Shown: positions 7,677-64,000, counted from the first letter of the stretch. The stretch: DNA of 64,000 nucleotides from Natronorubrum sediminis (GCF_900108095.1 NZ_FNWL01000001.1:1178001-1242000); one strand, 5' to 3'. Notes: a model not told the origin generated them from the sequence alone. Numbers and translations are program-made.

Positions 7677-8345
7677 CTACAAGAACTTCACACCGACATC
7701 GTGGAGTTCCTCGTTGTACTTCGCGATGTTGATGACGAGGGGGGTAACGCTCTCGACTTCGGCGGCGTTAGCAAGCGGGCCGGAGTCGAGCGCGCGCAGC
7801 CCCTCGATTTCGTTCGAGAGGTTGCGAACGGTTTCCTTTGCATCGTCGTCGTCCGCGACGAGTAGCGTGTCGAGATCCAGTTCGTTGTCGAGATTCGAGA
7901 GGGCGTCGGCCGCGAGGTTGTGGAACGCGCCGACGACGGGGACGTCCTCTGGCGCGCGCTCGGCCACGAGTTGGGTCACGCTGCCGGTTCCGGGCGGGTG
8001 GTAGTGCAGGCCGTCTTCGTCGCCTTGCATGCCCACTGCGGGGGTGACCAAAATCGTGTCCTCGTCGAGGGAGTCCGCGACGGCTTCGACCGTGTCGCCG
8101 GCGTAGTACGGCGGGACGCTGAGAACGACGACGTCGGCGCGATCCGCCGCCATCTCGTTGACGAAGCCGGTGATTTTCGCGTCGACGCCGCGCGAGTCGA
8201 GCGTCTCCTCGTATTCCGCGACGGCTTCACGCGCCTTCTCCGGGTCGCGCGAGCCGATGATGACCTCGTGGTCCGTATCGTGTGCAAACCGCAGGGCGAG
8301 GCCCTGCCCGATGTCGCCGGTGCCGCCGAGTAGTGCAATTCGCAT
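7677..8345 (-). CDS. npdG: NADPH:F420 oxidoreductase-like protein
   Basis: 222 residues beginning MRIALLGGTGDIGQGLALRFA, a Rossmann NADP-binding glycine motif (GGTGDIG, residues 7-13). It continues through VVVLSVPPYYAGDTVEAV to GAFHNLAADAL, matching the Fno/NpdG family. These enzymes move hydride between NADPH and coenzyme F420. In haloarchaea F420 supports a limited set of redox reactions; a flavin-dependent LLM-family enzyme, a fold that includes F420 users, is encoded 860 bases away. The start ATG at 8343-8345 leaves no room for further N-terminal sequence. Good length match to the family. Confidence 0.88.
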   Translation of the reverse strand: MRIALLGGTGDIGQGLALRFAHDTDHEVIIGSRDPEKAREAVAEYEETLDSRGVDAKITGFVNEMAADRADVVVLSVPPYYAGDTVEAVADSLDEDTILVTPAVGMQGDEDGLHYHPPGTGSVTQLVAERAPEDVPVVGAFHNLAADALSNLDNELDLDTLLVADDDDAKETVRNLSNEIEGLRALDSGPLANAAEVESVTPLVINIAKYNEELHDVGVKFL

Positions 8346-8435
8346 ACCTACCTTCGGTGGGGCACCCGAATAAAAGGGGTGGAGGGCGGCCGTTCTCGCC
8401 GGGTTCTGGGACGGTGGCGAACCCGAGCGAGAACG

Positions 8436-8720
8436 TTAGCCTCGAAACGGTGGAAGCAAGTCGAACGCCGCTGCAGTAATCGCGAGCCCGAGACCGACCA
8501 TGACGCCACCGAACGCAACGTTGACGGACGACGGTGTCTCGACGATTGCCTGCACACCGACACCGACCAAGAGCAAGGCGAGAGCCAACAAGAGGACGGT
8601 CCCCAGCACGTCGAGTAGCGCGTCCTCGATTCCGGTTCGAACGGCCGTGTAGAGTTCGTCCTGATCGATCTCGACGGTAACGGTAGTATCCGTCTCCGCG
8701 TCTCGGCCCGATTCGCTCAT
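8436..8720 (-). CDS. Small membrane protein, unknown function
   Basis: 94 residues beginning MSESGRDAE. An acidic soluble N-terminal half (about 1-38) is followed by two hydrophobic helices (about 39-60 and 68-86), with a charged break at VETPSS between them. No family recognised. The ATG at 8718-8720 is preferred over the start ten codons upstream, since that extension lacks coding character. It sits between the F420 reductase gene and another short gene on the same strand. Confidence 0.65.
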   Translation of the reverse strand: MSESGRDAETDTTVTVEIDQDELYTAVRTGIEDALLDVLGTVLLLALALLLVGVGVQAIVETPSSVNVAFGGVMVGLGLAITAAAFDLLPPFRG

Positions 8721-17435: not shown

Positions 17436-19250
17436 TCAGGGCGCGTAGTAGTACTCGCCGTCTGCTTTCTGCTGTTTGTCGAGTTGCGAATCGGGCTTGT
17501 TGATTCGCGGACGCGACGTACGCTCGTCCCGGCGGAACGTGACCTCGAGATTCGCCAGGAAGTCGTTCATGCCCTCGCGCATCGGTTGTGGCCCACTGGC
17601 CCGACCGTGTTCGGCTGGTTCGCCGTCGAAGACCATCAATCGGTCCGCGAGCAGGTCGATCATGTACGTGTCGTGGTCGATGACCATGACCGTCGCGTCC
17701 TGTTGTTCAGCGTAGCGCCGGATCGCGCTCGTCGCCTGCACCCGCTGTTCGACGTCGAGGTGCGCCGACGGTTCGTCGAGGAGGTACAGATCCGCGGAGT
17801 CGGAGAGACAGGCCGCGATTGCCACCCGCTGGCGTTCACCGCCCGAGAGGTCTGCGAGATTCTGCTCCATGATCCGCTCGAGTTGGAGCGGTTGAGCGAT
17901 TTCGGTGTTCCAGTACGACGAACCGAACTGGTCCGTGATCGACGAGAGGAACGCGTCGACGCGCATGTGCTGGTCGATCGTCACGTACTGTGGCTTGTAG
18001 GAGATGTCGAGGTCGAGGTCCGCGTCCCCTTCGTCTGGCTCGAGGTTCCCCGTGAGAAGTTTCGCGAACGTCGACTTCCCGATGCCGTTCGGACCGACGA
18101 TGCCGAGCACCTCGTTCTGGCGGATCGTCCCGCCCTCGACCTCGAGGGAGAACTCGCCGTCGCCGTAGCTCTTAGTGAGGTCGGGGTACTCGACGAGCGG
18201 CTCAGTGTGACTCGCCGCTCGAGGCGCGTGTTCTTCGAACTCGATGGGATCCGGTCGGATCCGCATGTTCTCGTTGTCGAGGTAGCCCGAGAGGTACTCG
18301 TTGATCCCGTTTCGGACGGATTTCGGGGCCGTAATGACACCGTAGGCACCGGGCTCACCGTAGGCGACGTGGAGCGTGTCGGCCAGTAAGTCGAGAATGG
18401 CGAGGTCGTGTTCGATGACGAGCATCGACCGATCCTCTTTCTCGGCGAGGTCTCGGATCAGTCGGGCCGCCGTCACTCGCTGCCCGATATCGAGGTACGG
18501 CGTGATCTCGTCGAGGAAGTAAAAGTCCGTATCGCGAGCCAGCGTCGCCGCGATGGCCACACGCTGGAGTTCCCCGCCGGAGAGGTCGTCGATCGATTGG
18601 TCCATCACCGGCCCGAGCGAGAGTCGCTCGACGAGTTCGTCGAGCGCCCCACGTTCGTTAGTTTGCTCGAGCAACTCGCGTGTATTGCCATCGAACGTGT
18701 TCGGAATCTGGTCGACGTACTGGGGCTTTCGGGCGACCGTCACGTCGCCGTCACGGACGGCTGCGATGTAGTCCTGGAGTTCCGTCCCGCGATAGGCCTC
18801 GAGGACGTCGTCCCAGTCGACGTCTTCGTCGTGGCGTCCGAGATTCGGCTCGAGTTCACCGGCTAAAATTCGGATGGCAGTGGTCTTCCCGATACCGTTC
18901 GGGCCGAGAATCCCGGTGACTTGCCCGTCCTGTGGTGCTGGGAGCCCATAGAGCGAGAAGGCGTTCTCGCCGTAGCGATGGGCCGGATCGTTCTGGAGTT
19001 CCTTCGGGAGGTTGATGATCTCGATGGCGTCGAAGGGACACTTTTCGACGCAGATTCCGCAGGTTTCGCCCAGACAGATCTCTTCGGAGATGTGAATCTG
19101 TTCGGGTTGCCCTTCGTCCGTATCTTCACCCCGAAGGGTGATACACTCCTTTCCCGTCCGATTCGGCGGGCAGTAGTTCTTACACTCGTAGCTACATCGA
19201 TCTGGCTGGCACCGATCTAAGTCTACGACGGCGATACTGTCATCAGCCAT
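17436..19250 (-). CDS. Ribosome recycling ATPase ABCE1/Rli1
   Basis: 604 residues with the full ABCE1 layout. Two N-terminal [4Fe-4S] clusters are ligated by Cys14, 19, 23, 27 and Cys59, 64, 67, 71. Two ABC ATPase domains follow: Walker A GPNGIGKTT then GPNGIGKST, signatures LSGGELQRVAIA and LSGGERQRVAIA, with a hinge between and after. ABCE1 splits post-termination 70S ribosomes in archaea and joins initiation complexes. The gene starts two bases after the end of the EMC6-like gene, so they form an operon. Short acidic tail. Nothing is missing compared with characterised archaeal ABCE1. Confidence 0.97.
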   Translation of the reverse strand: MADDSIAVVDLDRCQPDRCSYECKNYCPPNRTGKECITLRGEDTDEGQPEQIHISEEICLGETCGICVEKCPFDAIEIINLPKELQNDPAHRYGENAFSLYGLPAPQDGQVTGILGPNGIGKTTAIRILAGELEPNLGRHDEDVDWDDVLEAYRGTELQDYIAAVRDGDVTVARKPQYVDQIPNTFDGNTRELLEQTNERGALDELVERLSLGPVMDQSIDDLSGGELQRVAIAATLARDTDFYFLDEITPYLDIGQRVTAARLIRDLAEKEDRSMLVIEHDLAILDLLADTLHVAYGEPGAYGVITAPKSVRNGINEYLSGYLDNENMRIRPDPIEFEEHAPRAASHTEPLVEYPDLTKSYGDGEFSLEVEGGTIRQNEVLGIVGPNGIGKSTFAKLLTGNLEPDEGDADLDLDISYKPQYVTIDQHMRVDAFLSSITDQFGSSYWNTEIAQPLQLERIMEQNLADLSGGERQRVAIAACLSDSADLYLLDEPSAHLDVEQRVQATSAIRRYAEQQDATVMVIDHDTYMIDLLADRLMVFDGEPAEHGRASGPQPMREGMNDFLANLEVTFRRDERTSRPRINKPDSQLDKQQKADGEYYYAP

Positions 19251-19252
19251 TG

Positions 19253-19579
19253 TTAGACGCTTGCCCCCGTGGTGAGCAGGATACCAAACGTCACGAACCA
19301 GAACGAGAAGGTCATGAACACGATGTACAGGTAGTGTTTCGCCCCGAACTCGTCGTCCCCGTAAATGCTCGTGAAGTCAAAGAGGATGAACTGGGCGAGG
19401 ATTGCCCCCAACACGAGCAAGAGCCCTCGCATATCCGACGCTGCCGCGTCTGCCGAAGCGGCGTCGCCGGTAATCGCCAGCGAGGCAAACCCGGCAGCGA
19501 CGCCGAGCAGCGCCGACAGCGCCGTCACGCTGATCGAGCGAATATGCTCGCGTCGGTCACTAATCGATTCGGTCGACAT
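19253..19579 (-). CDS. EMC6-like small membrane protein
   Basis: 108 residues with three hydrophobic helices (about 17-36, 50-68, 82-104) and a charged N-terminus. The loop FTSIYGDDEFGAKHYLYIVFMTF between helices 2 and 3 and the overall size are those of the archaeal EMC6-like family, relatives of a subunit of the eukaryotic ER membrane complex that helps insert membrane proteins. The stop is separated by two bases from the ATG of abce1, so co-translation is likely. Identification rests on size, topology and the recurrent abce1 context, so function is inferred. Confidence 0.7.
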   Translation of the reverse strand: MSTESISDRREHIRSISVTALSALLGVAAGFASLAITGDAASADAAASDMRGLLLVLGAILAQFILFDFTSIYGDDEFGAKHYLYIVFMTFSFWFVTFGILLTTGASV

Positions 19580-19777
19580 GCGAATAACTCCGAGTGCGGG
19601 GCTAAAAAGGCGTTCGGGTCGCCGCCGAGAGACGATAGCGTCCAGAATTGGGGACTCGAGATAACGACGTTGCGACTGACGAGCGAACTCGATCGTAACT
19701 GATCGCCAACAACACGAACATGCAGGTATTATTCGTCATATTCGTCAGGAAGAGCCTCCTTTGTTTAGTCCGATAGG

Positions 19778-20281
19778 CTACCCAGGAGGACCGCCACCAC
19801 CGGGACCGCCACCGCCGCCAGGGTGGCAATTGTACTCGAGATCGAACTCGAGAGCGATGTTAGAGACCGTCATTGCTTCGGATTCTGCCTCTTCAACGAA
19901 CACATCAACCTGCACCGTATTACCATCGTGTCCGCCAATTCCGTCCACACACTCAACGACGATCTCACCTGATTCTTCTGGGCCGAGGGTATCAGGACTG
20001 CTCTCCACCTCGAGGTCGTTACCGAGTCCATCGACTACGATATCAGGGTTGGTAAACTCCGTGCCAACGTTGTTGTGAAGGTAAACGACAGTGGCGGCAT
20101 CACCGTTTCCTTCAATTTCCTCACCAGTTGGTTCGACACCCAGGTACGCACTTGAGTCGCCCCCTGTACTGACGTCCACCCCTCGCTCAGAGCTCACGGT
20201 GGTAAACCCGTAGATCGGACCCGCCAGTAACACGGCACCTATCACGAGGAACGCAATGGCGAGTCTCGAGAGTCTGAGCAT
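19778..20281 (-). CDS. Small secreted TasA/DUF1102-like protein A of the surface-fibre locus
   Basis: 167 residues. A signal peptide (1-27, MLRLSRLAIAFLVIGAVLL...) ends at GFTTVSSERGVDVS. The mature part begins with the pattern F-x-x-V...R-x-V-x-V...AYLGV that is also found in the genes at 23887 and 25364. The body is beta-rich and acidic (VVYLHNNVGTEF). The C-terminus is a glycine/proline tail (GGGGGPGGGGPPG) after one Cys. It probably is an exported structural protein cut by the SipW-type peptidase encoded at 27331, as in TasA-like fibres; this is inference from motif and locus. It lies three bases downstream of the winged-helix gene on the same strand. Confidence 0.72.
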   Translation of the reverse strand: MLRLSRLAIAFLVIGAVLLAGPIYGFTTVSSERGVDVSTGGDSSAYLGVEPTGEEIEGNGDAATVVYLHNNVGTEFTNPDIVVDGLGNDLEVESSPDTLGPEESGEIVVECVDGIGGHDGNTVQVDVFVEEAESEAMTVSNIALEFDLEYNCHPGGGGGPGGGGPPG

Positions 20282-20284
20282 TAA

Positions 20285-20821
20285 TTACGGTGGACGCTCC
20301 ATTCGTCCGAGTTGCTGCTTTCGGGCCTGAAACGCGTGGACGACGGCCGAAACTCCGAACACCGAAAAGACCAGCGTTCCCCAGAATAGCTCTGAAACGG
20401 TCTCCGTTGGTATCGCCCCCAACCAGAGTCCGCTCACGACGACCGCGCCAATCGCCGTCAACCCGAGGTAGTACATTGCCCACGGAATCGAGCCCGACGG
20501 GACGATATCGAGGTAGATCTCGAGGTCCGCCGCCTCGTCCGTCAGTTCGATCGTTCGGTCGTCGAACTCGATCACGTCCGCTCGCTCGAGCGTCGGCAAA
20601 TGTGTCTGCTGTAAGGACGTGTACACGCGCTTTCGCTCTGCAGACGTGAGTTCTGTGACCTCCTTGTCGAGTTCCCAGGCCGCCACGTGTTCCGCCAGGT
20701 CGCCGATCGTCACCGGTTCGTTCTCGCGTTTACAGTAGTGAATCGTATAGCGGCGACGCTGATTGCTCAGCAGATCGAATATCTCCCCCTTTCTCGAGTC
20801 GCTACTCATCGGTGTCGCCAT
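20285..20821 (-). CDS. Winged-helix (DUF7344-like) membrane regulator
   Basis: 178 residues. The N-terminal half (about 1-105) is a winged helix of the haloarchaeal DUF7344 kind: KGEIFDLLSNQRRRYTIHYC, TIGDLAEHVAAWE, then SAERKRVYTSLQQTHLPTLERADVIEFD. Two membrane helices (about 111-133 and 140-160) and a basic tail follow. This suggests a DNA-binding domain held at the membrane. It is upstream of and nearly abutting secreted protein A, so it probably regulates the surface-fibre locus. The ATG at 20819-20821 is favoured over the TTG at 20839 because a TATA-like box around 20862 would place transcription start near 20836. Confidence 0.75.
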   Translation of the reverse strand: MATPMSSDSRKGEIFDLLSNQRRRYTIHYCKRENEPVTIGDLAEHVAAWELDKEVTELTSAERKRVYTSLQQTHLPTLERADVIEFDDRTIELTDEAADLEIYLDIVPSGSIPWAMYYLGLTAIGAVVVSGLWLGAIPTETVSELFWGTLVFSVFGVSAVVHAFQARKQQLGRMERPP

Positions 20822-21011
20822 TGGATATCGTACCCCCAATGAAGAGTGACGTATCTATCGTACATAATGTTTCTTGCCGGGAGACGACAGTACTTTTGTG
20901 TGTGACAGGATGGAAATTCCCACTCAGTATGCGCCTTATCGACTGAATTCAATTGAGCAAGTCAATCTCGATATTGCCACCATCCACAATTTGTCAGTTT
21001 TAGCGAGCGAG

Positions 21012-23765
21012 TCAGGAGTCGATCTCGACGACCTGTTCGCTGGCACTGACAGCGTAGTCTGCCGTCACGTCTCGTTCGTGTGTCGCAGTAATTTCGACTT
21101 CTGGTTCGGCATCGACCTCGACTTCTTCTTCCGCGATGGTCTCGAAGAGATCGAAGAGTTCCTCGGCGTCGTCCGTGCTGTGGAACGAGCCGCCAGTCTG
21201 TTCGGCCCACTCCTCGAGTTCGTCTTCCGGAATCGGATCGTGCTCGAGGCCGCCCAACCCGACAGTGTAGAGCGTGACGTTGAGTTCGTTCGCGCGCTCG
21301 ACTTGCGCGTCCATCGCCGCATCATCTTCGGGATAGTTGTTCTGTCCGTCGCTCAGCAGAACCGTAACTCGCTCCTGGTCGTCTTCGCCGTAGTTCTCGT
21401 AGTCGTTAAGTGCGAGTTCGAACCCGTCGGCCATGTTCGTTCCGCCGTCTGCGTGGCCTTCGACGTTCGCCTGCGCTGCCTCGAGGTCGTCGTCGAGGTG
21501 ATGGAGCACGTGTCCGTCTCGGTCGAAGTCGTAGACACCGGCGCGGTCACCATCGGTCTCGTTCATCATGCCGATGAAATTCCGAGTCGCGTCGACGCGT
21601 TCACTGGTCGGGTCGTTTCCGGGGTGATTGTACAGACCGAGCGACGCTGTACGTTCCCAAAAGGACACCCCGGAATGGTCGTCGGGATGGACACGAACGT
21701 CCTCCCAGTCATCTGGATGAGCGTAATCGCGATACTCGAGTCGCTCGGTGTTGCCGTCCTCGTCTCGGAGTTCGACGTCACGTTCGTTCGATCCCAGGAA
21801 ACCACCCTCCATATTCCGGAAGGGGTCCCCCGTCGGAATCGGTTCCCAGTCTTCGCCGACGTCGACTTCGTCGTTCGGATTGTACGGATCGACCGCGTCG
21901 TTCGGGTTGTGTGGCCCCATCGACCCGGATCGGTCGAGCACGAACGTCGCGTCGAGTGGCATTCGTTGCTCGCCGTACTCGAAGTAGAGGTCCTCGTCGG
22001 AGTCCGTAAACGGCGTCTCGGTACGCAACGATTCGTCGAAGTTGACCTCGACATCGTACTCCTCGATGTCATCGTCTTGTGGGCCCTGTGGGTTCTGGTT
22101 TGAAGATTCGAGATTGCCATCCCCAGCAACGACTGCACCGTCGATCGTTACGTCCGCAGCAATGTCGATATCGGCACCCGGCGCGTAGACGACACCCTGG
22201 AAGTCGTCGTCGATAGTGATTTCTGAATTACTCGAGCCGTAGATCCACAGCGAATCAGCGCTGTCGTCGGGTTCGATTTCGACGTTTCCGAGTTCGACGT
22301 TTCCATCGACGTAAAAGTTCGTCTGATTGTCCCCACTGACTGTAATAGTGTCCGACTCGTTTATAAGTTCAAGCGCGTTGTGTCCGTCGACACCGACATG
22401 GACATCACCATCAGACGAATCGAGTGAGTCAATGTCGGAGGCCCCATCGAACAACCCTTCTTGACCGTCACCGTCGGTGGCGGAAACTTCACCATCCGCT
22501 TCTGGTTCCCCATCGAGATACTCATCATGCAATTGCTCGAGTTCGTCGTCGATACGATCGATGTCATCGAACGGTTCTGAGAGCTCCGTTGCAAGTGCAT
22601 CTACCTGGTGAGGTTGAGCGTTCTCATCTGGATCTGGCCGTAATTGGTAGACACCGTCAGCCTCGCCTTCGGAACCAACAGGATGGCCATCGACAGCCGT
22701 TCCGTAACCGAGTTGCGAAATTACTGGGTTACCATTAGATCCGAGTGTGCCGTTCACGACGGGAATTCCATCGACAGTTGCGTGGTTGTGGAGATCGTAC
22801 GACTCGTAATTTGCGAGGAACAGGTCGTCGGAGACGTTCTCTTCCGTATCGTCATTTTCGTAGGAATTTACGTCAAGCGTCGAATCGAGTTGGCCCTCGT
22901 CACCCTCGAGGAACAGGCCGCCGAAGATGGCCGGTTCGATATCGACGAGGTCTGCGAGCGGCGCGTCGCCGTCGACGGCGGCGACGACCGTAACCGACTC
23001 TGCCGACTCATCGTGGCAGATAACAGTCACTTCACCACTGGCCGAGTCACAGTCGTCGTCTACGTCGGATTCGTCGACCGCATCGAACTCGTCCTCCAGG
23101 AATGAGTACCAGCCGTGGTGGTAGGCCGTCTCGGTAACCTCGACCGTGACGTGGTCCACGTAGTCCATGTCGTTACCGAGGGTGTCGAATTCACCTGAAT
23201 TATCGTCTTGGGGTTGTTGAACCGTGTGTTCACCGGAGCCAACGGTTCCCTCGAGCGAGAGCGGCGAAATGTCGATTCGACCGACCTCCTCGTCGTCGAT
23301 GGTTTCTTGATAATAGTCGATGTTCGGCGTCGACATCGGGGTCGCACGGTCGTCGTGAATCTCCCAAACGCCACCTGCCTGATAGGCGTACTCGTTTCCA
23401 CCGTCGTCTTCGGCCGCGAACGTTGTCAAATTGGTCGATTCAGTGTCAGTTCGGTACCCATCCGACACGGTCACTTCCAACTTACCGTCATCGACGATTT
23501 CGCCGTCGAGATCGTCGAGGTAGACCGATCCCGTTTCACCCTGTGCAGCAATCGTCGTGAGATCGGAGTCGAACTGCTGGAGGTCCTGTTCGGTCTTTTC
23601 TCCGTGCGTCTGTGATTGGATTGTATCCATCGCACCCATTCCGACGACGAATACGAGCGTCCCCCCCACGAAGACCATCATGAACAACAGCACGATACCG
23701 AGTTGTGGATTAACCCCCCGATCCCGGTGAGCGTGCGAAGATGGTCTATTCCCAACACTGTTCAT
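21012..23765 (-). CDS. Giant exported von Willebrand factor A protein with pilin-like N-terminus
   Basis: 917 residues. A short basic start and RGVNPQLGIVLLFMMVFVGG (residues ~16-35) form an archaellin/pilin-like membrane segment of the DUF7289 kind. Next is a long beta-rich acidic region (40-500) with a DUF7305-like, polymer-forming-type stretch (SLWIYGSSNSEITIDDDFQG...) near 500-545. A von Willebrand A domain (about 605-890) has the MIDAS start D611-R-S-G-S (VLDRSGSMG), GGTNMADGFELAL and VTVLLSDGQNN. It is probably a surface metal-dependent adhesion protein. The ATG at 23763-23765 is preferred to a TTG four codons upstream since a TATA box (23789-23800) predicts leaderless transcription there. 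Part of the surface-fibre locus. Confidence 0.83.
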   Translation of the reverse strand: MNSVGNRPSSHAHRDRGVNPQLGIVLLFMMVFVGGTLVFVVGMGAMDTIQSQTHGEKTEQDLQQFDSDLTTIAAQGETGSVYLDDLDGEIVDDGKLEVTVSDGYRTDTESTNLTTFAAEDDGGNEYAYQAGGVWEIHDDRATPMSTPNIDYYQETIDDEEVGRIDISPLSLEGTVGSGEHTVQQPQDDNSGEFDTLGNDMDYVDHVTVEVTETAYHHGWYSFLEDEFDAVDESDVDDDCDSASGEVTVICHDESAESVTVVAAVDGDAPLADLVDIEPAIFGGLFLEGDEGQLDSTLDVNSYENDDTEENVSDDLFLANYESYDLHNHATVDGIPVVNGTLGSNGNPVISQLGYGTAVDGHPVGSEGEADGVYQLRPDPDENAQPHQVDALATELSEPFDDIDRIDDELEQLHDEYLDGEPEADGEVSATDGDGQEGLFDGASDIDSLDSSDGDVHVGVDGHNALELINESDTITVSGDNQTNFYVDGNVELGNVEIEPDDSADSLWIYGSSNSEITIDDDFQGVVYAPGADIDIAADVTIDGAVVAGDGNLESSNQNPQGPQDDDIEEYDVEVNFDESLRTETPFTDSDEDLYFEYGEQRMPLDATFVLDRSGSMGPHNPNDAVDPYNPNDEVDVGEDWEPIPTGDPFRNMEGGFLGSNERDVELRDEDGNTERLEYRDYAHPDDWEDVRVHPDDHSGVSFWERTASLGLYNHPGNDPTSERVDATRNFIGMMNETDGDRAGVYDFDRDGHVLHHLDDDLEAAQANVEGHADGGTNMADGFELALNDYENYGEDDQERVTVLLSDGQNNYPEDDAAMDAQVERANELNVTLYTVGLGGLEHDPIPEDELEEWAEQTGGSFHSTDDAEELFDLFETIAEEEVEVDAEPEVEITATHERDVTADYAVSASEQVVEIDS

Positions 23766-23788
23766 TCTACAATACAATCTCGCCCTAA

Positions 23789-23800
23789 ATTATATAAGTG
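23789..23800 (-). promoter_or_regulatory. TATA box of the giant VWA gene
   Basis: On the minus strand acttatataatt is centred about 26 bases before 23768, just ahead of the ATG at 23765. It is one of the clearest haloarchaeal promoter boxes in the window and decides the start codon. Confidence 0.65.
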
Positions 23801-23886
23801 TACTGTATAGTCATCATAGACGAACATCTATTTTATCAGAAATTAGAGAAAAGAGTAGGTCGCGTGGACGAGTGCTCACTACCGCA

Positions 23887-24918
23887 CTATTCAGGAATCT
23901 CGAGATCGATTTTGACGGGGAGCTCTGCGCCAGGGTCGTCCGGGTCGAGTCCCCCTACGTACAGCACAACAGTCGCTGTTTCTCCGCGCATGTCGACCTG
24001 GCTAAACGCGCCACCAGTACGGAACTGCTCGAGCGTAACTGTGGCCTCGTCCCCACTTTCGAGCACTGCCTGATCACCGAGATCGTATCGGGGTGCACCG
24101 TCGCCGATTTCGATGTCGTCATCGAGACTTCCGTCTTCACTCGCGTCGATGATGAGTTCTGAGCCGCCGGTTCCGGTGTAGCCGATTTCACTCGCCGCAC
24201 TCGAGGTTTCTCGTACTGAGATTCCAGTCACAGTTCCATCACCTTCACCCTCGTATTCGATGTCGAACATGACTGCCGATTCCTCGCCAGTATCGACGCC
24301 ACTCGAGGTCGCAGTTTCGGGTGGACCGACGAGTTCAAGGCCGGAATCGTCGATTGGAATCGGCGCTGGGTAGTCATCGGCGGGTGGCTGGTCGCCTTCG
24401 CAATCGAAATTGACGCCAGATACCGTAAACGCCTCTCGGTCAACAGAAGCACCAGATCCGTCTGTAGTAACCGACAAGTCGACCGTCGCGTCGTCCGCCG
24501 CCACGTCGACATCCTGACTACACTCGAGTTCGATCGGCACGGCGTCCCCTGAGTTGAGGCCGGCGTGATCATCGGTATTCGCGACCGAGAGGACACTGCT
24601 ATCACCGCCGCCAGCCCACGTCGTACCGCGAACGTGTACGTCCGCAATCTCGAGTGGGTCGTTTGCGTTGTTCGTTATGGATGCGACCTCAGCGCTCACA
24701 TCGGTGCCGCCAATCGGCCCCCATCCACTATCGTATTCGATTTCCGGCCCGTCGTACGTTTCCTCGAGACCGAGATACGCGTATTGGTCGTTCTCGGCGA
24801 CGGAGACGCTCGTTTCTCTGTCTGCGACTGACGAGTAGCCGCCGAACAGGGGTGCGACGACGATTGCGCCGCCGACGAGGAGACAGATCACGCCCAGCAT
24901 CGTGAACGCGTTTCTCAC
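23887..24918 (-). CDS. Secreted TasA/DUF1102-like protein B of the surface-fibre locus
   Basis: 343 residues starting at GTG 24918. A hydrophobic signal segment (5-25, MLGVICLLVGGAIVVAP) leads to FGGYSSVADRETSVSVAENDQ, then AYLGLEET, the same motif as proteins A and C. The mature part is beta-rich and acidic and seems to hold two or three domains (about 30-190 and 190-340), including CSQDVDVA and FDCEGDQ with two cysteines. The C-terminus lacks a membrane anchor. Likely an exported fibre or matrix subunit. The start codon GTGA overlaps the stop of a small ORF that begins leaderlessly at 25079 (see that entry). Confidence 0.75.
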   Translation of the reverse strand: MRNAFTMLGVICLLVGGAIVVAPLFGGYSSVADRETSVSVAENDQYAYLGLEETYDGPEIEYDSGWGPIGGTDVSAEVASITNNANDPLEIADVHVRGTTWAGGGDSSVLSVANTDDHAGLNSGDAVPIELECSQDVDVAADDATVDLSVTTDGSGASVDREAFTVSGVNFDCEGDQPPADDYPAPIPIDDSGLELVGPPETATSSGVDTGEESAVMFDIEYEGEGDGTVTGISVRETSSAASEIGYTGTGGSELIIDASEDGSLDDDIEIGDGAPRYDLGDQAVLESGDEATVTLEQFRTGGAFSQVDMRGETATVVLYVGGLDPDDPGAELPVKIDLEIPE

Positions 24919-25079
24919 GGCACGATCCCCCTATCGATCGAGTGGAGTCGACAGCCGTGCCGATCCGTTCGCCCTGCGTCAGTCGAATTCGCGCTCGAGT
25001 GGTCGCCCCGATCACGGCCTCGTCTCGAGTCGACCACCGAAATGGTCACTCCCTGTCGTTCCCCAACACGTGCTCCCAT
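24915..25079 (-). CDS. Possible 54-residue leader ORF upstream of protein B
   Basis: An ORF from ATG 25079 whose TGA overlaps the GTG start of protein B by four bases. On the minus strand a TATA box (25103-25112) lies about 26 bases upstream of the ATG, so the mRNA would start at this ATG. The encoded peptide is arginine/aspartate/serine-rich, unlike known families, and its codon use is not clearly haloarchaeal. It may be a translated leader that couples ribosomes into protein B, or just an untranslated leader. Not recognised. Confidence 0.35.
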   Translation of the reverse strand: MGARVGERQGVTISVVDSRRGRDRGDHSSANSTDAGRTDRHGCRLHSIDRGIVP

Positions 25080-25102
25080 AGGGCTCGAGATAGGACGGGC
25101 CC

Positions 25103-25112
25103 ACAATAATTT
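25103..25112 (-). promoter_or_regulatory. TATA box in the divergent gap between fibre proteins B and C
   Basis: Reading the minus strand, aaaattattgtg fits a haloarchaeal promoter. The 445-base gap 24919-25363 separates the minus-strand proteins B, VWA, A and regulator from the plus-strand run C to DUF5305, so it is the likely control centre of the locus. Apart from the small ORF above I see no gene in the gap; several TATA-like stretches occur (25105, 25280, 25357). Confidence 0.5.
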
Positions 25113-25363
25113 TTCTGCCGAACGGGATAGATTGTACTATTGAAGACTGTTCGTATTTGGCAGTGGCTCGTAAACAGAATCGAACGGTTTCGACGCCGAA
25201 CAGAGCCGTTCAAGCCTACCCTGAGCGAGTGTATGGCTCACCGTTCAGCCCTTCTGGCAACCGAATACAAAGTGGGTGGCATATCTACCGGTTAGTACGG
25301 ACCGCGTACCGGCGTCCGTCCTCGAGACGAGACGACCGGCGCGACAGAACGGAGATCATATAC

Positions 25364-25942
25364 ATGAGAATGAATCGACGCAACGTGTTAGTGGGATTAG
25401 GAACGATCGTCGCGGGTGGTGGGGCTGCACTCGGGACGGGCGCGTTTAGTACCGTAGAAGCAAGTCGGGACGTCTCCGTCGAAATCGCAGACGACGCGAA
25501 CGCGTTTCTCGCGATCGACGTACACGAAGACCGTGACGGAGATGATGAGTTTGACGGAGACGATGAGTTCGTCGAACTCGACGAGGACGGTGATCACGAC
25601 ACCGTCGAGTTCGATTTCAGTGGCACTGATGATTCGGACGGACTCAATGAGGATGCGGTAACCAGATTCGATAATCTCGTTACGCTCACGAACAATGGTT
25701 CGGAGCCAGTAGAGATCACTATTGACGCATACACGGAAGACGATGACGGTGAAGTTGACAATGAAATTTCGGAGGGCTTCACCGCGTACGAAGGAGATAC
25801 CGAAGACGATGTTATCGACGACAAGACGCTCGATGAAGACGACGACGAGCAGCTTCACGTCGGTTTCGAGTTCGACACCACGACGGACGACGACGTTGAG
25901 GATATCGACATAATCCAAATCGAAGCCTCTGCCGAGGACTAG
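25364..25942 (+). CDS. Secreted TasA/DUF1102-like protein C with a twin-arginine-like signal
   Basis: 192 residues. The N-terminus MNRRNVLVGLGTIVAGGG resembles a Tat signal peptide; the mature protein begins ...GTGAFSTVEASRDVSVEIADDANAFLAI, matching the motif of proteins A and B. This is the DUF1102 family of haloarchaeal exported proteins, and the later VTLTNNGSEPVEITI recalls the beta-sandwich of TasA/CalY-type fibre proteins. No cysteines are seen, and no C-terminal anchor. The ATG at 25364 or 25370 would start it. It heads the plus-strand run of the locus (C, D, signal peptidase, DUF5305). Confidence 0.82.
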   Translation: MRMNRRNVLVGLGTIVAGGGAALGTGAFSTVEASRDVSVEIADDANAFLAIDVHEDRDGDDEFDGDDEFVELDEDGDHDTVEFDFSGTDDSDGLNEDAVTRFDNLVTLTNNGSEPVEITIDAYTEDDDGEVDNEISEGFTAYEGDTEDDVIDDKTLDEDDDEQLHVGFEFDTTTDDDVEDIDIIQIEASAED

Positions 25943-26081
25943 TGGGCCAGGTGAGTAGCACTAGCTAAGGCTGTTACGCAGTACACCGAAACCACTGGGA
26001 ATGGGGTGAACTTGCGTAGACGGCGTGCCGGCCCAGGTTCGGCTGGCACCCGACAGCCGTTTGAGACGAGCCGAGTGACGA

Positions 26082-27221
26082 ATGCGAACTATACGGCGAA
26101 TGGTATCACCGAAGGCGATATGGACCGTTGTGGCGGCCTGTGTAGTACTTACACTGGCAGTGCCGACCGTGGCGATTACGATGGCCGAAGATACCACCAG
26201 TGACGACGTCGTCCTCGAGCCAACGACATCCTACGCGTCGGTCACGGACGAGGGTAAGCTCGAGGTGGATCTCGAGCGTCTCAACGAGCAGGCGGTGACC
26301 ACGTTCGACGATGTATTTACGATCAGCGTCGGTGACGATGCCGTTTCACGAGTCTGGATCGAAGACGTCGAGGGGCTCACCTTTTACGAAAACGGGAACC
26401 AACACGCAGAGCTGAGCGAATCGTCACCGCTCGAGCCGGAGGCTGGCGAGAGCGCACGGATCGGTGTGAGTATCGATACGCACGTCGACCACGCAGAGAC
26501 GGAGAGGTTCACGGTCCACGTCGAGTACGAAGACGACGATGGGAAATCGGCCGGTGTCGTTACCCTCGAGGACCTCGAGGTCGAGCCGGAAACGGTCGAA
26601 ACGGGAGCGAACGTCACGGTGAACGCGACCTACGAGAACGTCGGCGAGCGGACGAAGACGACCGACGCCGAGTTGACGGTAGACGGAGCCGTCGTCGATT
26701 CCGAGTCAGTGACGGTCAGTCCTGGAGACACAGAGACGGTGCATTTCGAGCGCCAACTCGAGTGGCCGGGGGAGACCGAACTCGGCGTCGACGGCGTCGA
26801 ACACGAGACGGTTTCGGTCGACGGCCCGCCGGTCGACGTGCTCGAGGCATCGGTCGTCGATACCGAACTCGAGGCTGGCGAGACGGGGGAAATCGAGGCG
26901 ACGGTCTCGAATCCGACCGACGAACCGGTCGATCGAACGCTCGAACTCGCGGTCGACGGCATCGTCGTCGACACGCAAACGGTGGCACTCGAGTCCGCGA
27001 GCGAGCAGACGCTCACGTTCGAACACGAGTTCGACGGCGAAGGGACGACGCCCGTTGCAGTCAGCGGCGTCGACGCCGGCACGGTCACCGTCGACGAGCC
27101 GACGTTCGAGATTCAAAACAGAGAGCTGTCGGCGACGACAGTGGCTGCGCTCGCACCACCGATGGCGGCGAGTTTGCTGATTGTCGCGACTGCCGCGAAT
27201 CGGCGGTGGGTGAACAAATGA
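26082..27221 (+). CDS. Membrane-anchored surface protein D with CARDB-like repeats
   Basis: 379 residues. Hydrophobic signal (about 12-33), an N-terminal DUF1102-like domain (about 40-165), then two CARDB-like beta domains (about 165-255 and 258-345; ETGANVTVNATYENVGERTKT and EAGETGEIEATVSNPTDEPVD). A C-terminal membrane helix (about 351-371) is followed by a short basic tail, so the bulk is outside the cell. It sits between fibre protein C and the SipW-type peptidase and could be the anchor or assembly factor of the fibre. Its stop overlaps a 38-codon ORF by four bases. Confidence 0.8.
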   Translation: MRTIRRMVSPKAIWTVVAACVVLTLAVPTVAITMAEDTTSDDVVLEPTTSYASVTDEGKLEVDLERLNEQAVTTFDDVFTISVGDDAVSRVWIEDVEGLTFYENGNQHAELSESSPLEPEAGESARIGVSIDTHVDHAETERFTVHVEYEDDDGKSAGVVTLEDLEVEPETVETGANVTVNATYENVGERTKTTDAELTVDGAVVDSESVTVSPGDTETVHFERQLEWPGETELGVDGVEHETVSVDGPPVDVLEASVVDTELEAGETGEIEATVSNPTDEPVDRTLELAVDGIVVDTQTVALESASEQTLTFEHEFDGEGTTPVAVSGVDAGTVTVDEPTFEIQNRELSATTVAALAPPMAASLLIVATAANRRWVNK

Positions 27222-27334
27222 CTCGCGTACCCGAACGAAAACTGGGGAAGCGAGTACAACCAGTGTCGAAGCGAGCACGGTCACCGTCGAGGCGAAGACA
27301 GCCGAACGGACGCCTTCGGGTGGTCAAACCGTGA
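27218..27334 (+). CDS. Possible 38-residue basic ORF bridging protein D and the signal peptidase
   Basis: ATG 27218 overlaps the stop of protein D by four bases (ATGA) and its TGA overlaps the GTG start of the peptidase gene by four bases (GTGA). The product would be strongly basic (about one third Arg/Lys), unlike the acidic haloarchaeal proteome. Double overlap fits translational coupling, but each ATGA/GTGA overlap is partly automatic, so the ORF may be non-functional as a protein. Not recognised. Confidence 0.35.
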   Translation: MTRVPERKLGKRVQPVSKRARSPSRRRQPNGRLRVVKP

Positions 27335-28500
27335 CGACGAGAACGATCCTCAAGCGGGTGCTAGGCGGTGTCGTCGCGCTCGTCATCGTCTTGTTGTTGG
27401 TCGGCCAACTCCTCGGCCAGCCCATTTTGCTCGGGTACGTCGCGACCGGCAGCATGGAGCCGACGATGGACGCGGGAGACGGCTTCGTCTCGGTTCCGAG
27501 CGCCGTGACGGGATCGCCCGAGGAAGGTGACGTGGTCGTCTTCGAGGCTCGAGAGTTACACGACGGTGAGTTGACCACGCATCGAATCGTCGACGAAACG
27601 GAGGAAGGCTACGTGACGAGTGGCGACGCGAACCCGTTTACGGATCAAGATAGCGACGAGCCACACGTCACCGACGACCAGATCGTCGCGACCGCGTGGG
27701 CACCCGGCGGTGATCCCGTCACGATTCCACACCTGGGGACGGCGATTATGGGCATTCAGGGTGGCGTGGAATCGGCGTTCGGAACGGTTGCGTCGACGGT
27801 CGGGCTGTCGGAACCGACCGACTTCGATTCGGTCGGTGCGGTGCTCGTGGGTCTCGGTGTCGCCTTGCTCGGCTTCGGAATCCTCCTCGAGCGACTCGGG
27901 CCCGGACACCGGGAGGCGACGCGAACGCGCTCGCGACCGAACGTCATCGCGTTGTGGACGGTGTTGGGGGTCGTCTTGCTCGTCTTCGTGACAGGGGCGA
28001 CGGCAGCGATGGTGATTCCGTCGGGAACCGTCGAGTACGGACTCGCGAGCACCACGTCTCCGAGTGACGACCCACAGGAACTCGAGCCCGGTGAGACTGG
28101 CGAGTTGACACAGACGGTCAACAACGCGGGCTACCTGCCGATCGTCGCCATCCACGAGAGTGATCGCGAGTCTGTCGGTACCGATCCGGATCGACAGACG
28201 GTCGGCCCACGCTCGAGTGGGGAGGCGACGGTGTCGCTTACCGCACCCCAGGAAACTGGCGAATACACGCGTGCCGTCGAGGAACACCGATATATCGCAC
28301 TTCTGCCACCGTCCGTGATCGAGTGGCTCCACGATGGGCACCCACTCCTCGCAATCGCCGCCGTCAACGGCGTCATCGTTGGTGTTGCCGTTACGCTCGT
28401 CCTCGCCGTGTTCGGACGAAACGACATTCGGATTCGAAGCACTGGCGTGCACGTCTCGCTGACGACTCGAGTCCGTCGAAAAATTCGGGAGTGGCGATGA
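27331..28500 (+). CDS. Signal peptidase I, SipW/ER type, with a large C-terminal exported domain
   Basis: 389 residues from GTG 27331. A first membrane helix (10-35) precedes the S26B active site: Ser41 in ATGSMEPTM and His84 in TTHRIVDE (His rather than Lys, as in archaeal and eukaryotic SEC11 and bacterial SipW), with Asp99/Asp105 in SGDANPFTDQD. After the ~140-residue peptidase comes a pair of helices (about 165-187 and 208-230), an exported beta-type region (about 232-325) and a last helix (about 339-362). It probably processes the neighbouring secreted proteins. SipW-type peptidases are known to mature TasA-like fibre proteins in bacteria; that function here is inference. Confidence 0.88.
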   Translation: MTTRTILKRVLGGVVALVIVLLLVGQLLGQPILLGYVATGSMEPTMDAGDGFVSVPSAVTGSPEEGDVVVFEARELHDGELTTHRIVDETEEGYVTSGDANPFTDQDSDEPHVTDDQIVATAWAPGGDPVTIPHLGTAIMGIQGGVESAFGTVASTVGLSEPTDFDSVGAVLVGLGVALLGFGILLERLGPGHREATRTRSRPNVIALWTVLGVVLLVFVTGATAAMVIPSGTVEYGLASTTSPSDDPQELEPGETGELTQTVNNAGYLPIVAIHESDRESVGTDPDRQTVGPRSSGEATVSLTAPQETGEYTRAVEEHRYIALLPPSVIEWLHDGHPLLAIAAVNGVIVGVAVTLVLAVFGRNDIRIRSTGVHVSLTTRVRRKIREWR

Positions 28501-28699
28501 TCGGGTTCGAACGCGATTTCGGCCGCGTCGGACGATCCAACACGGCGACAGTCGCCCGTTCCGATTTGGCCAGTATAGTTATAATGGACGAAAGTGATAA
28601 TTATATTCAAGTGATACTTTCAACCGTTTGCGGTTGGGAATTACTGCGGGGATGGAAAGCGGAGGGCCAGCACCGCTGTCTCTCCAGGGGTAACTAACT

Positions 28700-29884
28700 G
28701 TGATCGATAACGCACGACTCGACTTGCTGTTCGCCGAGTATGGGAGAGCGATCGCGATTGCACTGGTCGTGATCGGTACGCTCGCACTCGTGGCGTCGGG
28801 ATGGGCCGTTGCGAACCCATCGACGACGACGGAAGCACAGTACGCGGACGAACACGTCTCGACGGAGTTGCACACGAGCGCCGAGGTCGTTCAAGACGGA
28901 ACGCTCTGGAACGAGGGAGAGTATCTCGAGAACAACGACGTCTACATGCTCAACGACTCGCCGATGTTGACCCTCGAGCCCGAGACGACGGTTCAGAGCG
29001 AACGCGAAGACGTCTCGGTCGACGATGCGGAGATCACACACGAACTCGAGGCGCGCTACGAAGCGACGCGAGACGGCGACGTGTTCTGGAACGAGAGCCA
29101 TACAGTGCTCGAGGAAACGCCGACCGTCGAAGACGGCGTCGCGACATCCTCGGAGACGATCGACGTCGAATCGTACCGAGACCGACAGGACGAACTCGAG
29201 CAGGAACTCGGCGGCGTCGGCGACGTGGACCTCGAGTTCGTGTTGTCGGTGGCCTACGATACTGGTGGCACGGAAGGAACTGACGAGGCGACGACGCCGT
29301 TCGAGGTGACCTCGACGGCCTACTGGCTCGGGGATTCGGCGTCGATGTCGGAGACGGCGACCCAGCAGACGGGGACCGAGGAGACGACTGAATCGCGCTC
29401 GCTCGCGTTGATCGCCGGACTGTCACTGCTCGGGACGATCTCACTCGCCGGGGCGGTGGGAATCGTCCGGCGCACGCCGGTCGACGAAACGGTTGCCCGG
29501 CGCAAAATCCACGAACGCCGCTACGCCGAGTGGATCTCGAAGGGGTCGATCCCGATGTGGATCGGGAACTATCACGTCTCGCTCGATACGCTCGAGGACG
29601 TCGTCGACGTCGCGATCGATACGAACGAGCGCGTCGTCCACGACACACAACGTGGGCTCTTCGCCGTGGTCAACGACGGCGTCGTCTACTACTACAGCGA
29701 GCGTGGACAGTGGGAGGAAACGGCCTGGCCGGAGATGAACCTCTCGGAGCACGGCGACTCGAGTGGCGACGGTGATGAACCGGCGATTACACCCGAAGAG
29801 ATGGATCTCGAGGGAATCGACGACTTCTCAGATCTGGACGAGGAAGGGTTCGAAGACGACGAAGACGTCTGGAAGCAACTCTAA
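28700..29884 (+). CDS. DUF5305 family membrane protein
   Basis: 394 residues from GTG 28700. An N-terminal helix (about 16-35) is followed by an outside beta-rich region (36-230), a second helix (about 236-258), and a cytoplasmic domain (260-394) with WIGNYHVSLDTLEDVVDVA and a very acidic tail. This fits the haloarchaeal DUF5305 family often found beside SipW-type signal peptidases. It follows the peptidase by 199 bases that hold a TATA-like stretch (about 28600-28612), so it may have its own promoter. Role unknown; it could sense or scaffold the surface fibre. Confidence 0.8.
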   Translation: MIDNARLDLLFAEYGRAIAIALVVIGTLALVASGWAVANPSTTTEAQYADEHVSTELHTSAEVVQDGTLWNEGEYLENNDVYMLNDSPMLTLEPETTVQSEREDVSVDDAEITHELEARYEATRDGDVFWNESHTVLEETPTVEDGVATSSETIDVESYRDRQDELEQELGGVGDVDLEFVLSVAYDTGGTEGTDEATTPFEVTSTAYWLGDSASMSETATQQTGTEETTESRSLALIAGLSLLGTISLAGAVGIVRRTPVDETVARRKIHERRYAEWISKGSIPMWIGNYHVSLDTLEDVVDVAIDTNERVVHDTQRGLFAVVNDGVVYYYSERGQWEETAWPEMNLSEHGDSSGDGDEPAITPEEMDLEGIDDFSDLDEEGFEDDEDVWKQL

Positions 29885-30116
29885 CCATCTCACAGCAGCC
29901 AGGGACGGGTACTGGTCCGAGCGGCGACGGAGGTGGGGCAGTCGTTTTTGACGGGCGAGTCGAGGGGGAGTAACTCGAGTGAAACTGCGTCGGGAAAAGC
30001 GGGATTTGGGGCAGACACACCGGGTCGCTTGCCGGTGATTTTGGTCGTGAAATCGGAGAGTCGGTTCGCCCGGTGATCGAAATGCGTAAATGATCGATCG
30101 TGATAGATTAGCGTGT

Positions 30117-31727
30117 ATGAAAACGCCACTCATCGTCACCGATTTTCTCGAGCAGGCACGGGCGTACTATGGAGACGAAACGGCGATCGTCGGGACTGCG
30201 GGGGAACGATTCACGTACGAGGAGTTTGGCGAGCGAGTCGATCGATTTTCGGCGGCGTTAGCAGAACGCGGAATCGAGAAGGGTGATCGAGTTGGAGTGC
30301 TCGATCCGAACACGCACTATCATCTCGAGGCGGCCTACGGTGCGATGCAACTGGGTGCGATCTTTACGCCGCTGAACTATCGGCTGACTCCGGACGATTA
30401 CGAGTACATTCTCTCGGATGCGGGCGTCGACGTGGTCTACGCGGATTACGAGTACGCCGAAAAGATCGAGCCGATCCGCGAGGACGTGCCGACGGAGACG
30501 TTCGTGACGAACGAGACGGACGCGGTGGACGGTCAGTGGGAGGACTTCGACACTGTACTCGAGGAGGCGGGGACCGAGTTCGACGCACCCGAGTTAGCCG
30601 AAGACGAGATCATTACGATCAACTACACCTCGGGGACGACGGGCGACCCGAAGGGCGTCTGTCGAACGCACAGAACGGAAACCGTTCACGCGTACCTGAT
30701 GTCGATGTATCACGAGATCACCGACGACGACGTCTACCTCTGGACGCTACCGATGTTCCACGTCAACGGGTGGGGCCACATCTACGCGGTGACCGGAATG
30801 GGTGCGACGCACGTCTGTACCCGCGGCGTCAACGCCGACGAGGTCGTCGAGGCGATTACAACCGAAGACGTGTCGTTCCTCTGTGCTGCACCGGCAGTGC
30901 TCAATCAGTTGATCGACTACTACGAGACAAAAGACGAACCCGAGATGATGGGCGAACACCGGGTGCGAGTGACGACCGCAGGCAGCGCGCCGCCGGAAGC
31001 GACCATTCGCGCCGTCGAAGAGGAGTTCGGCTGGTACCTGAAACACCTCTATGGAGCAACCGAAACCGGGCCGCTGATCACCATTTCCGATGCGAAACGG
31101 CTTCTGACCGACGAGAATCGCTACGAACTCAAGAAACGCCAGGGAATGGGCGTCCTCGGTACCGACGTCCGCGTCGTCGACGAAGACGGAAACGACGTCC
31201 CAAGAGACGACGCGACGCTCGGTGAAATCGTCGTCCGCGGCAATCAGATCATGGACCGCTACTGGAACAAGCCTGACGAGACGGAGGAAGCGTTCAGCGG
31301 CCGTCTCGAGGGATACTTCCACACCGGCGACCTCGCGTCGGTCGACGAAAACGGGATGATCGCCATCCGCGACCGGAAGAAGGACATCATCATCTCCGGC
31401 GGCGAGAACATCTCGAGTATCGAACTCGAGGACACGCTGTTCGATCACGACGCCGTTGGGGACGCTGCAGTCATCCCGGCTCCGAGCGAGGAGTGGGGAG
31501 AGACGCCGAAAGCGTTCGTCGTGCCCTCGAGTGGTTCGGCGGATCAACCGCCGGTTTCACCGGAGGAGTTGACCGAATTTACCCGCGAGCACCTCGCGAG
31601 CTACAAAGTGGTTCGGCAGATCGAATACGTCGAAGAGCTACCGAAGACTGCGACCGGAAAGACACAGAAGTACGAACTTCGCGAGCGCGAGTGGGAGGAC
31701 GAGGATCGACTGGTCGGTGAAGGATAA
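30117..31727 (+). CDS. Acyl-CoA/AMP-forming ligase (fatty-acid-CoA ligase type)
   Basis: 536 residues of the ANL superfamily. The N-terminal domain has the P-loop YTSGTTGDPKGV (about 176-187), the A5 motif YGATETGP, and the A8 hinge region YFHTGDLASVDENG...DRKKDIIISGGENISS. The C-terminal swing domain ends with the catalytic lysine in PKTATGKTQ. It activates a carboxylic acid (probably a fatty acid) with ATP and CoA. The ATG at 30117 is preferred to the start nine codons upstream since the conserved fold begins here. Transcribed alone on the plus strand. Confidence 0.9.
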   Translation: MKTPLIVTDFLEQARAYYGDETAIVGTAGERFTYEEFGERVDRFSAALAERGIEKGDRVGVLDPNTHYHLEAAYGAMQLGAIFTPLNYRLTPDDYEYILSDAGVDVVYADYEYAEKIEPIREDVPTETFVTNETDAVDGQWEDFDTVLEEAGTEFDAPELAEDEIITINYTSGTTGDPKGVCRTHRTETVHAYLMSMYHEITDDDVYLWTLPMFHVNGWGHIYAVTGMGATHVCTRGVNADEVVEAITTEDVSFLCAAPAVLNQLIDYYETKDEPEMMGEHRVRVTTAGSAPPEATIRAVEEEFGWYLKHLYGATETGPLITISDAKRLLTDENRYELKKRQGMGVLGTDVRVVDEDGNDVPRDDATLGEIVVRGNQIMDRYWNKPDETEEAFSGRLEGYFHTGDLASVDENGMIAIRDRKKDIIISGGENISSIELEDTLFDHDAVGDAAVIPAPSEEWGETPKAFVVPSSGSADQPPVSPEELTEFTREHLASYKVVRQIEYVEELPKTATGKTQKYELREREWEDEDRLVGEG

Positions 31728-31930
31728 GTAAGTAACCAAGTGAGCGGGTGATCGTCAACTCTCGACTCCCGCAATCCTCGCCATTGACTGACTGGCCAGT
31801 CAAATATGTATTTCTAGCACCTGAGTCCCCATTGAGGCAATATGCAACAGTACTTCTGACGGAATTTATGTCGAGTGATCCCGCTGACGAGGCTCAACTT
31901 TTATGCTTCTGGGACCTTTCGATTCGTAGT

Positions 31931-32224
31931 ATGGCACAGACCGACGGGGAGAACATCGAAGATTTGCCACCGAGTGCCAAACTCGTCTTCAAGGTACTCG
32001 AGTACGATGGTCCGTTGACCCAAAAGCAGATCGTCGAAGAGTCGATGTTGTCTGCCCGAACCGTTCGCTACGCACTCGAGCGGCTAGAGGATATTGGAAT
32101 CGTCGACGAAGATATTTACTTTGCTGACGCCCGACAGAGCCTCTATCGGATCGAGGAACCCGTCGCGGCCGACGGAAACGGCGTCGAGGAGTCACCGAAG
32201 AAGGACGCCTGCTGCGCCGAATAA
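31931..32224 (+). CDS. Winged-helix transcription regulator, MarR/ArsR-like
   Basis: 97 residues. Residues 12-70 form a winged helix: LPPSAKLVFKVLEYDGPLTQKQIVEESMLSARTVRYALERLEDIGIV. A short C-terminal extension ends KKDACCAE with paired cysteines that could bind a metal or sense redox state. A TATA-like box (aactttta, 31896-31903) about 26 bases upstream makes it leaderless at the ATG 31931 rather than the earlier in-frame start at 31748. It precedes a small membrane protein gene by 48 bases; regulation target unknown. Confidence 0.82.
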   Translation: MAQTDGENIEDLPPSAKLVFKVLEYDGPLTQKQIVEESMLSARTVRYALERLEDIGIVDEDIYFADARQSLYRIEEPVAADGNGVEESPKKDACCAE

Positions 32225-59858: not shown

Positions 59859-60048
59859 GCCTCGTTATGGATACAACCACACTAAATGGCCGTATCAGGG
59901 GCTTTTGACTGTTTACCAGGTTGTTTTCGTCCGTGACAGTTCATAAATCGGACTGTGGGTATATAAAACCCATTGTATTGGAGTGGGACCAACGTACCAT
60001 ATTAGCTGCTACCAACTGGAAGGCGATATAATAAGTCAGAATGTACCG

Positions 60049-60579
60049 TTACTTCTTATCTGAGATTTCAGAGGCCAAATATTCTTTCGCTTTTGCCACC
60101 CATTCTTCACCGAATTTTCTCTGGTACATCGGTGATGCAACCCTTATACTTCCGTTTTGTAGAATGAATTCCCCACTCCGTTCTTCATCCGTAACTTCAA
60201 AGATTGAGGCATCTTCGTCAGGTATACTAATGATATTCGAGTTTTCAACAACACTGTGGTTCAATTCTCCTACTACTTCCGGCTTATCTGCTTCTTCTGT
60301 GCTGTCTAATTCATCTTCTCGGCTATCACTGAGCGCATCGTCATGGTTTCCTACGATTTCATCATGATTAGCTTTCTTATCTATGAGATCTTCACACATG
60401 GATGCTATTGCAAAGAACAGGAAATACGATATTCCCAAAGCGACAACAATGGAGGACAGTAGTCCTAATATTATGTTAACTGCGAACAAGACTGCTGAAA
60501 TAATGGCACCGATGAACCAAATTCCAACTGATCCAAGTAGGAAGTTTTTGAAGTATGGGTTTACGAAGTCACTTTCCAT
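60049..60579 (-). CDS. Hypothetical two-TM protein of the integrated element
   Basis: 176 residues. Two hydrophobic helices (about 12-34 and 38-60) near the N-terminus, an acidic linker (70-115), then a small domain with GEFILQNGSIRVASPMYQRKFGEEWVAKAKEYL. Codon use is AT-rich, unlike the flanking chromosome, and consistent with foreign origin. No family recognised. ATG 60577-60579 starts it. Confidence 0.75.
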   Translation of the reverse strand: MESDFVNPYFKNFLLGSVGIWFIGAIISAVLFAVNIILGLLSSIVVALGISYFLFFAIASMCEDLIDKKANHDEIVGNHDDALSDSREDELDSTEEADKPEVVGELNHSVVENSNIISIPDEDASIFEVTDEERSGEFILQNGSIRVASPMYQRKFGEEWVAKAKEYLASEISDKK

Positions 60580-60808
60580 TATTGTATTTCATTTTCATGA
60601 CTGGTTTTGAGAATTGTAAGTGTTATTGCCGTATGGTTATTATCGAGTGTAAACCGCCTAAATTGATATGTCCCAATAATTATCTCCTATATGGATATGT
60701 CTCTAATCATGATTACAACAAATAAATATAAGTATTGATATAATCCAATTCAAATTAGATGATGTCTCGAGCAGTCATCAACCAAAACCTTACTGACCGT
60801 TGACAACA

Positions 60809-60916
60809 ATGGGAGGCAAATTAGTTAGAACATTAAGCAATCTGACTGGCCACCGGCCAAGCGCAACTCACTCGCAAATTTTCGGGATTTTGAGAGCCAT
60901 TTGTATAGATGTTTAA
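60809..60916 (+). CDS. Possible 35-residue ORF
   Basis: ATG 60809 to TAA 60916. The peptide is mildly basic with several hydrophobic residues. No Shine-Dalgarno-like or TATA signal stands out. Listed only because the region is otherwise empty. Confidence 0.2.
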   Translation: MGGKLVRTLSNLTGHRPSATHSQIFGILRAICIDV

Positions 60917-60955
60917 ATATAGACAGGTAGAAAAAGAAGACAACTCCTCATTCTC

Positions 60956-60977
60956 GACTGGAAGGGGGAAACCAGTC
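60956..60977. repeat. Perfect 6-bp hairpin with purine-rich loop
   Basis: gactgg (60956-60961) and ccagtc (60972-60977) flank an aagggggaaa loop. The motif gactggaaggg is repeated at 61800-61810 as part of the larger inverted repeat, so the element reuses it. Confidence 0.6.
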
Positions 60978-61393: not shown

Positions 61394-61404
61394 ATATTTA
61401 TATG
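61394..61404 (+). promoter_or_regulatory. TATA box of the element's structured RNA
   Basis: atatttatatg is about 25 bases upstream of 61420-61424, where the GC-rich folded stretch begins. It gives a likely start for the RNA. Confidence 0.6.
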
Positions 61405-61419
61405 CCCGTGTATTACTTA

Positions 61420-63999: not shown

Positions 64000-64000
64000 A

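Follow-up and report, generated by a model that had tools for sequence, protein, structure and literature searches.

A probable Taf pilus locus with variable subunit genes in the haloarchaeon Natronorubrum sediminis

Eight adjacent genes of Natronorubrum sediminis, a haloarchaeon of the Natrialbaceae, very probably constitute a Taf (Tafi) pilus locus that makes a thin surface fibre; we put the probability of this reading at roughly 0.87, the fibre being predicted here from its genes. The case combines homology of the main subunit to a pilin of solved structure, agreement of its predicted fold with solved TasA-like pili, the gene set itself and its linkage in other genomes. The pilus type already has a name (NCBIfam Taf) and a solved structure (PDB entry 9p0a); what this locus adds to the known Taf system is a lineage-specific VWA accessory and a striking variability of the subunits. 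The window analysed is a stretch of 64,000 nucleotides, to which all coordinates refer except where another locus is named, and its proteins were assigned to families by Pfam and NCBIfam profile searches. The locus (19778-29884) and its neighbours are laid out as follows.

17436-19250: flanking ABC protein, ABCE1-like by sequence reading
19253-19579: flanking EMC6
19778-20281, minus strand: TafC-type exported subunit of 167 residues with a Sec-like leader and a Gly/Pro-rich tail (TafC model NF052521, E = 1.3e-14, below cut-off)
20285-20839, minus strand: membrane winged-helix regulator, DUF7344 (PF24035, E = 4.1e-30) followed by two hydrophobic, membrane-type helices; its start is probably the ATG at 20821
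21012-23777, minus strand: giant VWA protein of 921 residues with a type IV pilin-like start (DUF7289 start, PF23960, E = 1.3e-10; DUF7305, PF23981, E = 1.8e-21; VWA, PF00092, E = 8.8e-10); its start is likely to be the ATG at 23765
23887-24918, minus strand: exported subunit of 343 residues with a Sec-like leader and a TafC-related first domain (comparison of its family profile with TafC)
24919-25363: divergent intergenic stretch of 445 bases that separates two transcription units, as defined by the gene coordinates
25364-25942, plus strand: main pilin candidate of TafE/TafA type with an RR (Tat-like) leader (TafE, TafA and 9p0a matches)
25440-25920, plus strand: bounded variable block within the pilin gene (sliding DNA identity against the closest congener)
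26082-27221, plus strand: TafF-type anchored protein with a subunit-like first domain, two Ig-like stretches and a C-terminal membrane helix
27331-28500, plus strand: dedicated SipW-like signal peptidase, extended by a C-terminal domain and additional membrane helices (TIGR02228, NF046067)
28700-29884, plus strand: DUF5305 membrane protein (PF17231, E = 9.7e-50)
30090-31727: flanking acyl-CoA synthetase-like gene, by sequence reading

A preliminary description of this DNA had proposed eight genes over about 10 kb, and all eight are present as open frames at the positions that it gave, four reading outward from the intergenic stretch on the minus strand and four on the plus strand. The DUF5305 membrane protein, the membrane winged-helix regulator and the giant VWA protein with its pilin-like start, all named in that description, are borne out by the profile matches listed above. 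A simple scan of 24919-25363 found no TATA-like hexamer. Nearly all Natrialbaceae loci are bordered, on the side of the DUF5305 gene, by a conserved gene for a small winged-helix protein, which may be part of the Taf locus; here that gene (31748-32224) is separated from the DUF5305 gene by the acyl-CoA synthetase-like gene. Far to the right, at the end of the window (60001-64000), G+C content drops from about 62% to 40-45%, possibly the mark of foreign or mobile DNA.

The assignment of the locus turns on the protein encoded at 25364. It matches one PDB chain well, 9p0a_C, annotated 'Pilin', in the entry entitled 'Structure of Natrinema sp. J7-2 Tafi pilus' (E = 7.1e-23): leader and mature start are the same, whereas the rest of the mature part has strongly diverged. 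The protein in the same slot of the Natrinema ejinorense locus matches that chain from end to end (E = 7.8e-87). NCBIfam searches also relate the 25364 protein to TafE (E = 3.1e-22) and, over the first 43 TafA positions, to TafA (E = 2.3e-14), both below the curated cut-offs. A structure model built from 16 sequences, of moderate quality (pLDDT 68.5), finds 9p0a first in a fold search (Z = 7.5) and the bundling pilus of Pyrobaculum calidifontis, 7ueg, second (probability 0.96, Z = 7.2 over 126 residues), although the latter has no sequence match to the 25364 protein at the thresholds used. These Z scores are not decisive by themselves, since PapD- and MSP-type sandwiches follow closely behind; taken together with the sequence match, the modelled fold places the protein firmly with the Tafi pilin. 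Predicted folds unrelated to TasA would, by the preliminary description, have told against its fibre reading; the best solved matches, the Tafi pilus and the TasA-like bundling pilus, do not refute it. TasA itself is absent from the fold matches listed for the model, whose predicted sandwich is closest to Tafi and bundling pili, and Pfam searches up to E = 1 link none of the three small exported proteins to the TasA/CalY (peptidase M73) family. A search of a plasmid collection with the 25364 pilin gave no match at 1e-5.

An alternative reading is that the locus encodes separate exported surface proteins, adhesins or S-layer-associated, which the dedicated peptidase cuts and which form no polymer. 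Fibres have not been observed on this strain, and the proteins encoded at 19778 and 23887 are unlike the pilin and carry other leaders. Against this stand the homology of the 25364 protein to a solved pilus subunit and the end-to-end match of its syntenic relative, and we consider non-polymerizing proteins unlikely. The TasA-like surface fibre of the preliminary description is supported, as a predicted structure, by Tafi pilin homology, fold and linkage.

That the eight genes form a system can be judged from their relatives. NCBIfam holds models for four Taf fimbrial proteins, TafA, TafC, TafE and TafF, and one reference locus, L065, has all four above the cut-offs; the same 7 kb also encode a regulator of the DUF7344 family, a SipW-like peptidase and a DUF5305 protein. 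The complement of the window is the same: DUF7344, SipW-like peptidase, DUF5305 and TafE/TafA-, TafC- and TafF-type proteins. (Our guess is that the Taf letters without models belong to the regulator, peptidase and DUF5305 genes.) Gene order differs between the two, there is no separate TafA in the window, and its Taf matches are all below the cut-offs; those to TafE, TafA and TafC are significant nonetheless, and TafF is recognized by profile comparison only. As the NCBIfam cut-offs are set for equivalogs, they limit the exact name and not the kinship. When genome contigs were searched with the peptidase alone, 20 loci were found, and in each of the 17 with enough flanking DNA the regulator, at least one subunit and DUF5305 were all present. 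Because it recurs in this way, the gene set is more than chance. Homologues scattered without the peptidase, which by the preliminary description would refute the fibre reading, are not what other genomes show: across several haloarchaeal families the subunit genes occur together with those for the peptidase, the regulator and the DUF5305 protein. Among 242 genomes sampled from the class, 186 have the peptidase family and 197 have TafC-type matches.

The three small exported proteins (19778, 23887 and 25364) share, as already described, a putatively processed N-terminus: a hydrophobic or RR-type leader is followed in all three by a mature start of the form [G/A][F/Y]x[S/T]...R.V.V....A.LG[IL]. 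Two of them depart from L065 in having Sec-like instead of RR leaders. The 19778 protein is the TafC-type subunit, and the family profile of the 23887 protein also matches TafC (97.2%, E = 2.9e-11, by profile comparison); the 23887 gene occupies the slot that TafA holds in L065. Its structure model is unreliable (pLDDT 47) and its fold matches are generic sandwiches and chaperone domains only. TafC of the reference locus has a lectin-like Laminin_G_3 domain (E = 8.6e-23), which suggests that it is a tip adhesin; the TafC-type protein of the window is without that domain.

The protein encoded at 26082 had been described as an anchored CARDB protein. The anchor stands, as a C-terminal membrane helix at residues 350-372, and the CARDB label, which has no Pfam support, was dropped. 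By profile comparison its first domain, of TasA-like type, matches TafF (89.8%, E = 1.8e-6) and the pilin family (96.3%, E = 1.7e-9; profile hit, 8e-7), and on this evidence we take the protein to be a divergent TafF.

The peptidase had been called SipW-type. It matches the archaeal signal peptidase I model TIGR02228 just below its cut-off (E = 3.3e-13, 49.8 bits against 51.85) and the Bacillus SipW model NF046067 well below its own (E = 5e-9, 36 bits against 190). The catalytic serine and histidine are kept (Ser41, His84, Asp99 and Asp105 are identical in 39 of 39 relatives). Several residues in the C-terminal part are likewise identical in all 39 relatives, an indication that the extra domain has a share in what the enzyme does; that it receives the processed subunits is a guess. 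A second, distant signal peptidase is encoded elsewhere in the genome. Copies of the DUF5305 gene adjoin copies of the peptidase gene even in genomes with several loci, as do all three in one such genome (G045).

How these parts might work together can be sketched from their relatives. In view of its RR leader, the 25364 protein would probably take the Tat route out of the cell, and the dedicated SipW-like peptidase would cut it at A27|F28. The cut after residue 27 is inferred from the G26-A27-F28 triplet, invariant in 16 aligned 25364-type proteins, and from 9p0a_C, whose 188 listed residues end at residue 215 and so fit a mature start at F28. The N-terminal strand freed in this way would slot into a groove in the beta-sandwich of the following subunit, a donor-strand assembly as in TasA and the bundling pili, with a thin surface fibre as the outcome. 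The Bacillus peptidase SipW cuts TasA, whose N-terminal strand, once mature, completes the sandwich of the subunit that follows (PMC9674648). The one pointer to such a step here is that, in the 25364 subunit, leader and mature start are the best conserved part and the remainder varies; donor-strand assembly is, like that of Bacillus TasA, the likely mode. The TafF-type protein may hold the base of the fibre through its related domain and C-terminal membrane anchor, the 19778 and 23887 proteins may serve as minor subunits or at the tip, the locus is presumably regulated by the DUF7344 membrane protein, and the DUF5305 protein may work with the peptidase.

The parallel with the Bacillus TasA/TapA/SipW system lies in the dedicated SipW-type peptidase beside subunits that have a short conserved strand at the mature start. 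The differences are also substantial: no protein of the window has a Pfam match to the TasA/CalY family, the main subunit has a Tat-type leader, the peptidase carries its extra C-terminal domain, and a TafF-type anchor takes the place of TapA. With respect to L065, the window lacks the lectin-like domain of TafC and has gained the VWA protein.

That protein invites a second alternative, namely that the locus makes a filament of the type IV pilus family in which the VWA protein is a key part. Its 921 residues do include the DUF7289 region and a type IV pilin-like leader, its gene sits between subunit genes, and it recurs in the loci of relatives. The remaining seven proteins have no type IV pilin-like start, though, and Pfam assigns none of the eight to the families of pilus ATPases, platform proteins or prepilin peptidases. 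Of 22 matching relatives, 8 have a similar VWA protein within the locus and the rest have it elsewhere, and most of the Taf loci examined have no VWA gene; a core role for it was rejected on that ground, and a type IV-family filament is highly improbable. In the Taf pilus locus, which we continue to favour, the VWA protein is a lineage-specific, optional accessory. The middle of its gene (21801-23200) has 77-84% DNA identity between congeners, against 93-94% at both ends.

Comparison with the closest congener (locus L069) brings out an uneven pattern of divergence. The 26082, 27331 and 28700 proteins are 94-97% identical between the two, whereas the 25364 subunit is 55% identical and the 19778 protein 31% identical to the protein in the same slot. 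(The TafC slot of L069, 17634-18497, is filled by a longer subunit that looks unrelated, of 287 residues and with an RR leader, compared with 167 residues and a Sec-like leader in the window.) By sliding DNA identity, the two loci are 97% identical before about 25440, a point within the leader, and only 38-73% identical beyond it; at 25920, where the gene ends, identity is back at 92%. It is near 50% over 19620-20280, between EMC6 at 98% and the regulator at 84%. The overall pattern between close relatives is thus a subunit block of about 35-75% identity inside DNA that is about 90-98% identical. It repeats between Natrinema limicola and N. hispanicum and between two strains named N. hispanicum, where the block includes the start of the TafF-type gene, and it is less sharp between two Natronococcus. 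Outside the window, the sharply bounded low-identity blocks at subunit genes include 8180-8700 of locus L010 compared with L007 and 7940-9020 of L010 compared with L013.

Over 153 pairs, mean identity is 78% for leader and mature start and 31% for the rest of the mature subunit, compared with 70% for the peptidase and 53% for the TafF-type protein; these means are rough, because a few loci hold several subunits and some pairs may therefore mix paralogues. The pairwise DNA profiles are independent of such mixing. Blocks of this kind fit a fibre that is exposed and subject to strong pressure for variation, whether by block swapping or by fast divergence. A more specific proposal, which we hold only tentatively and would not back at even odds, is that subunits are swapped as gene blocks among relatives, with leader and mature start preserved as an invariable code for assembly. 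Strains would then present differing fibres built by shared machinery, which might help them to evade viruses or alter how they adhere; in the Natrialbaceae the type IV-pilin-like VWA protein would perhaps be a further adhesin of this pilus.

According to the analysis, most of the haloarchaeal genomes sampled have a TasA-type pilus locus that includes a peptidase of its own, and for one lineage the genes are now clearly mapped. The juxtaposition of constant machinery and variable subunits makes two questions open to test: are the leader and first strand sufficient to admit a subunit to assembly, and what causes subunits to be replaced?
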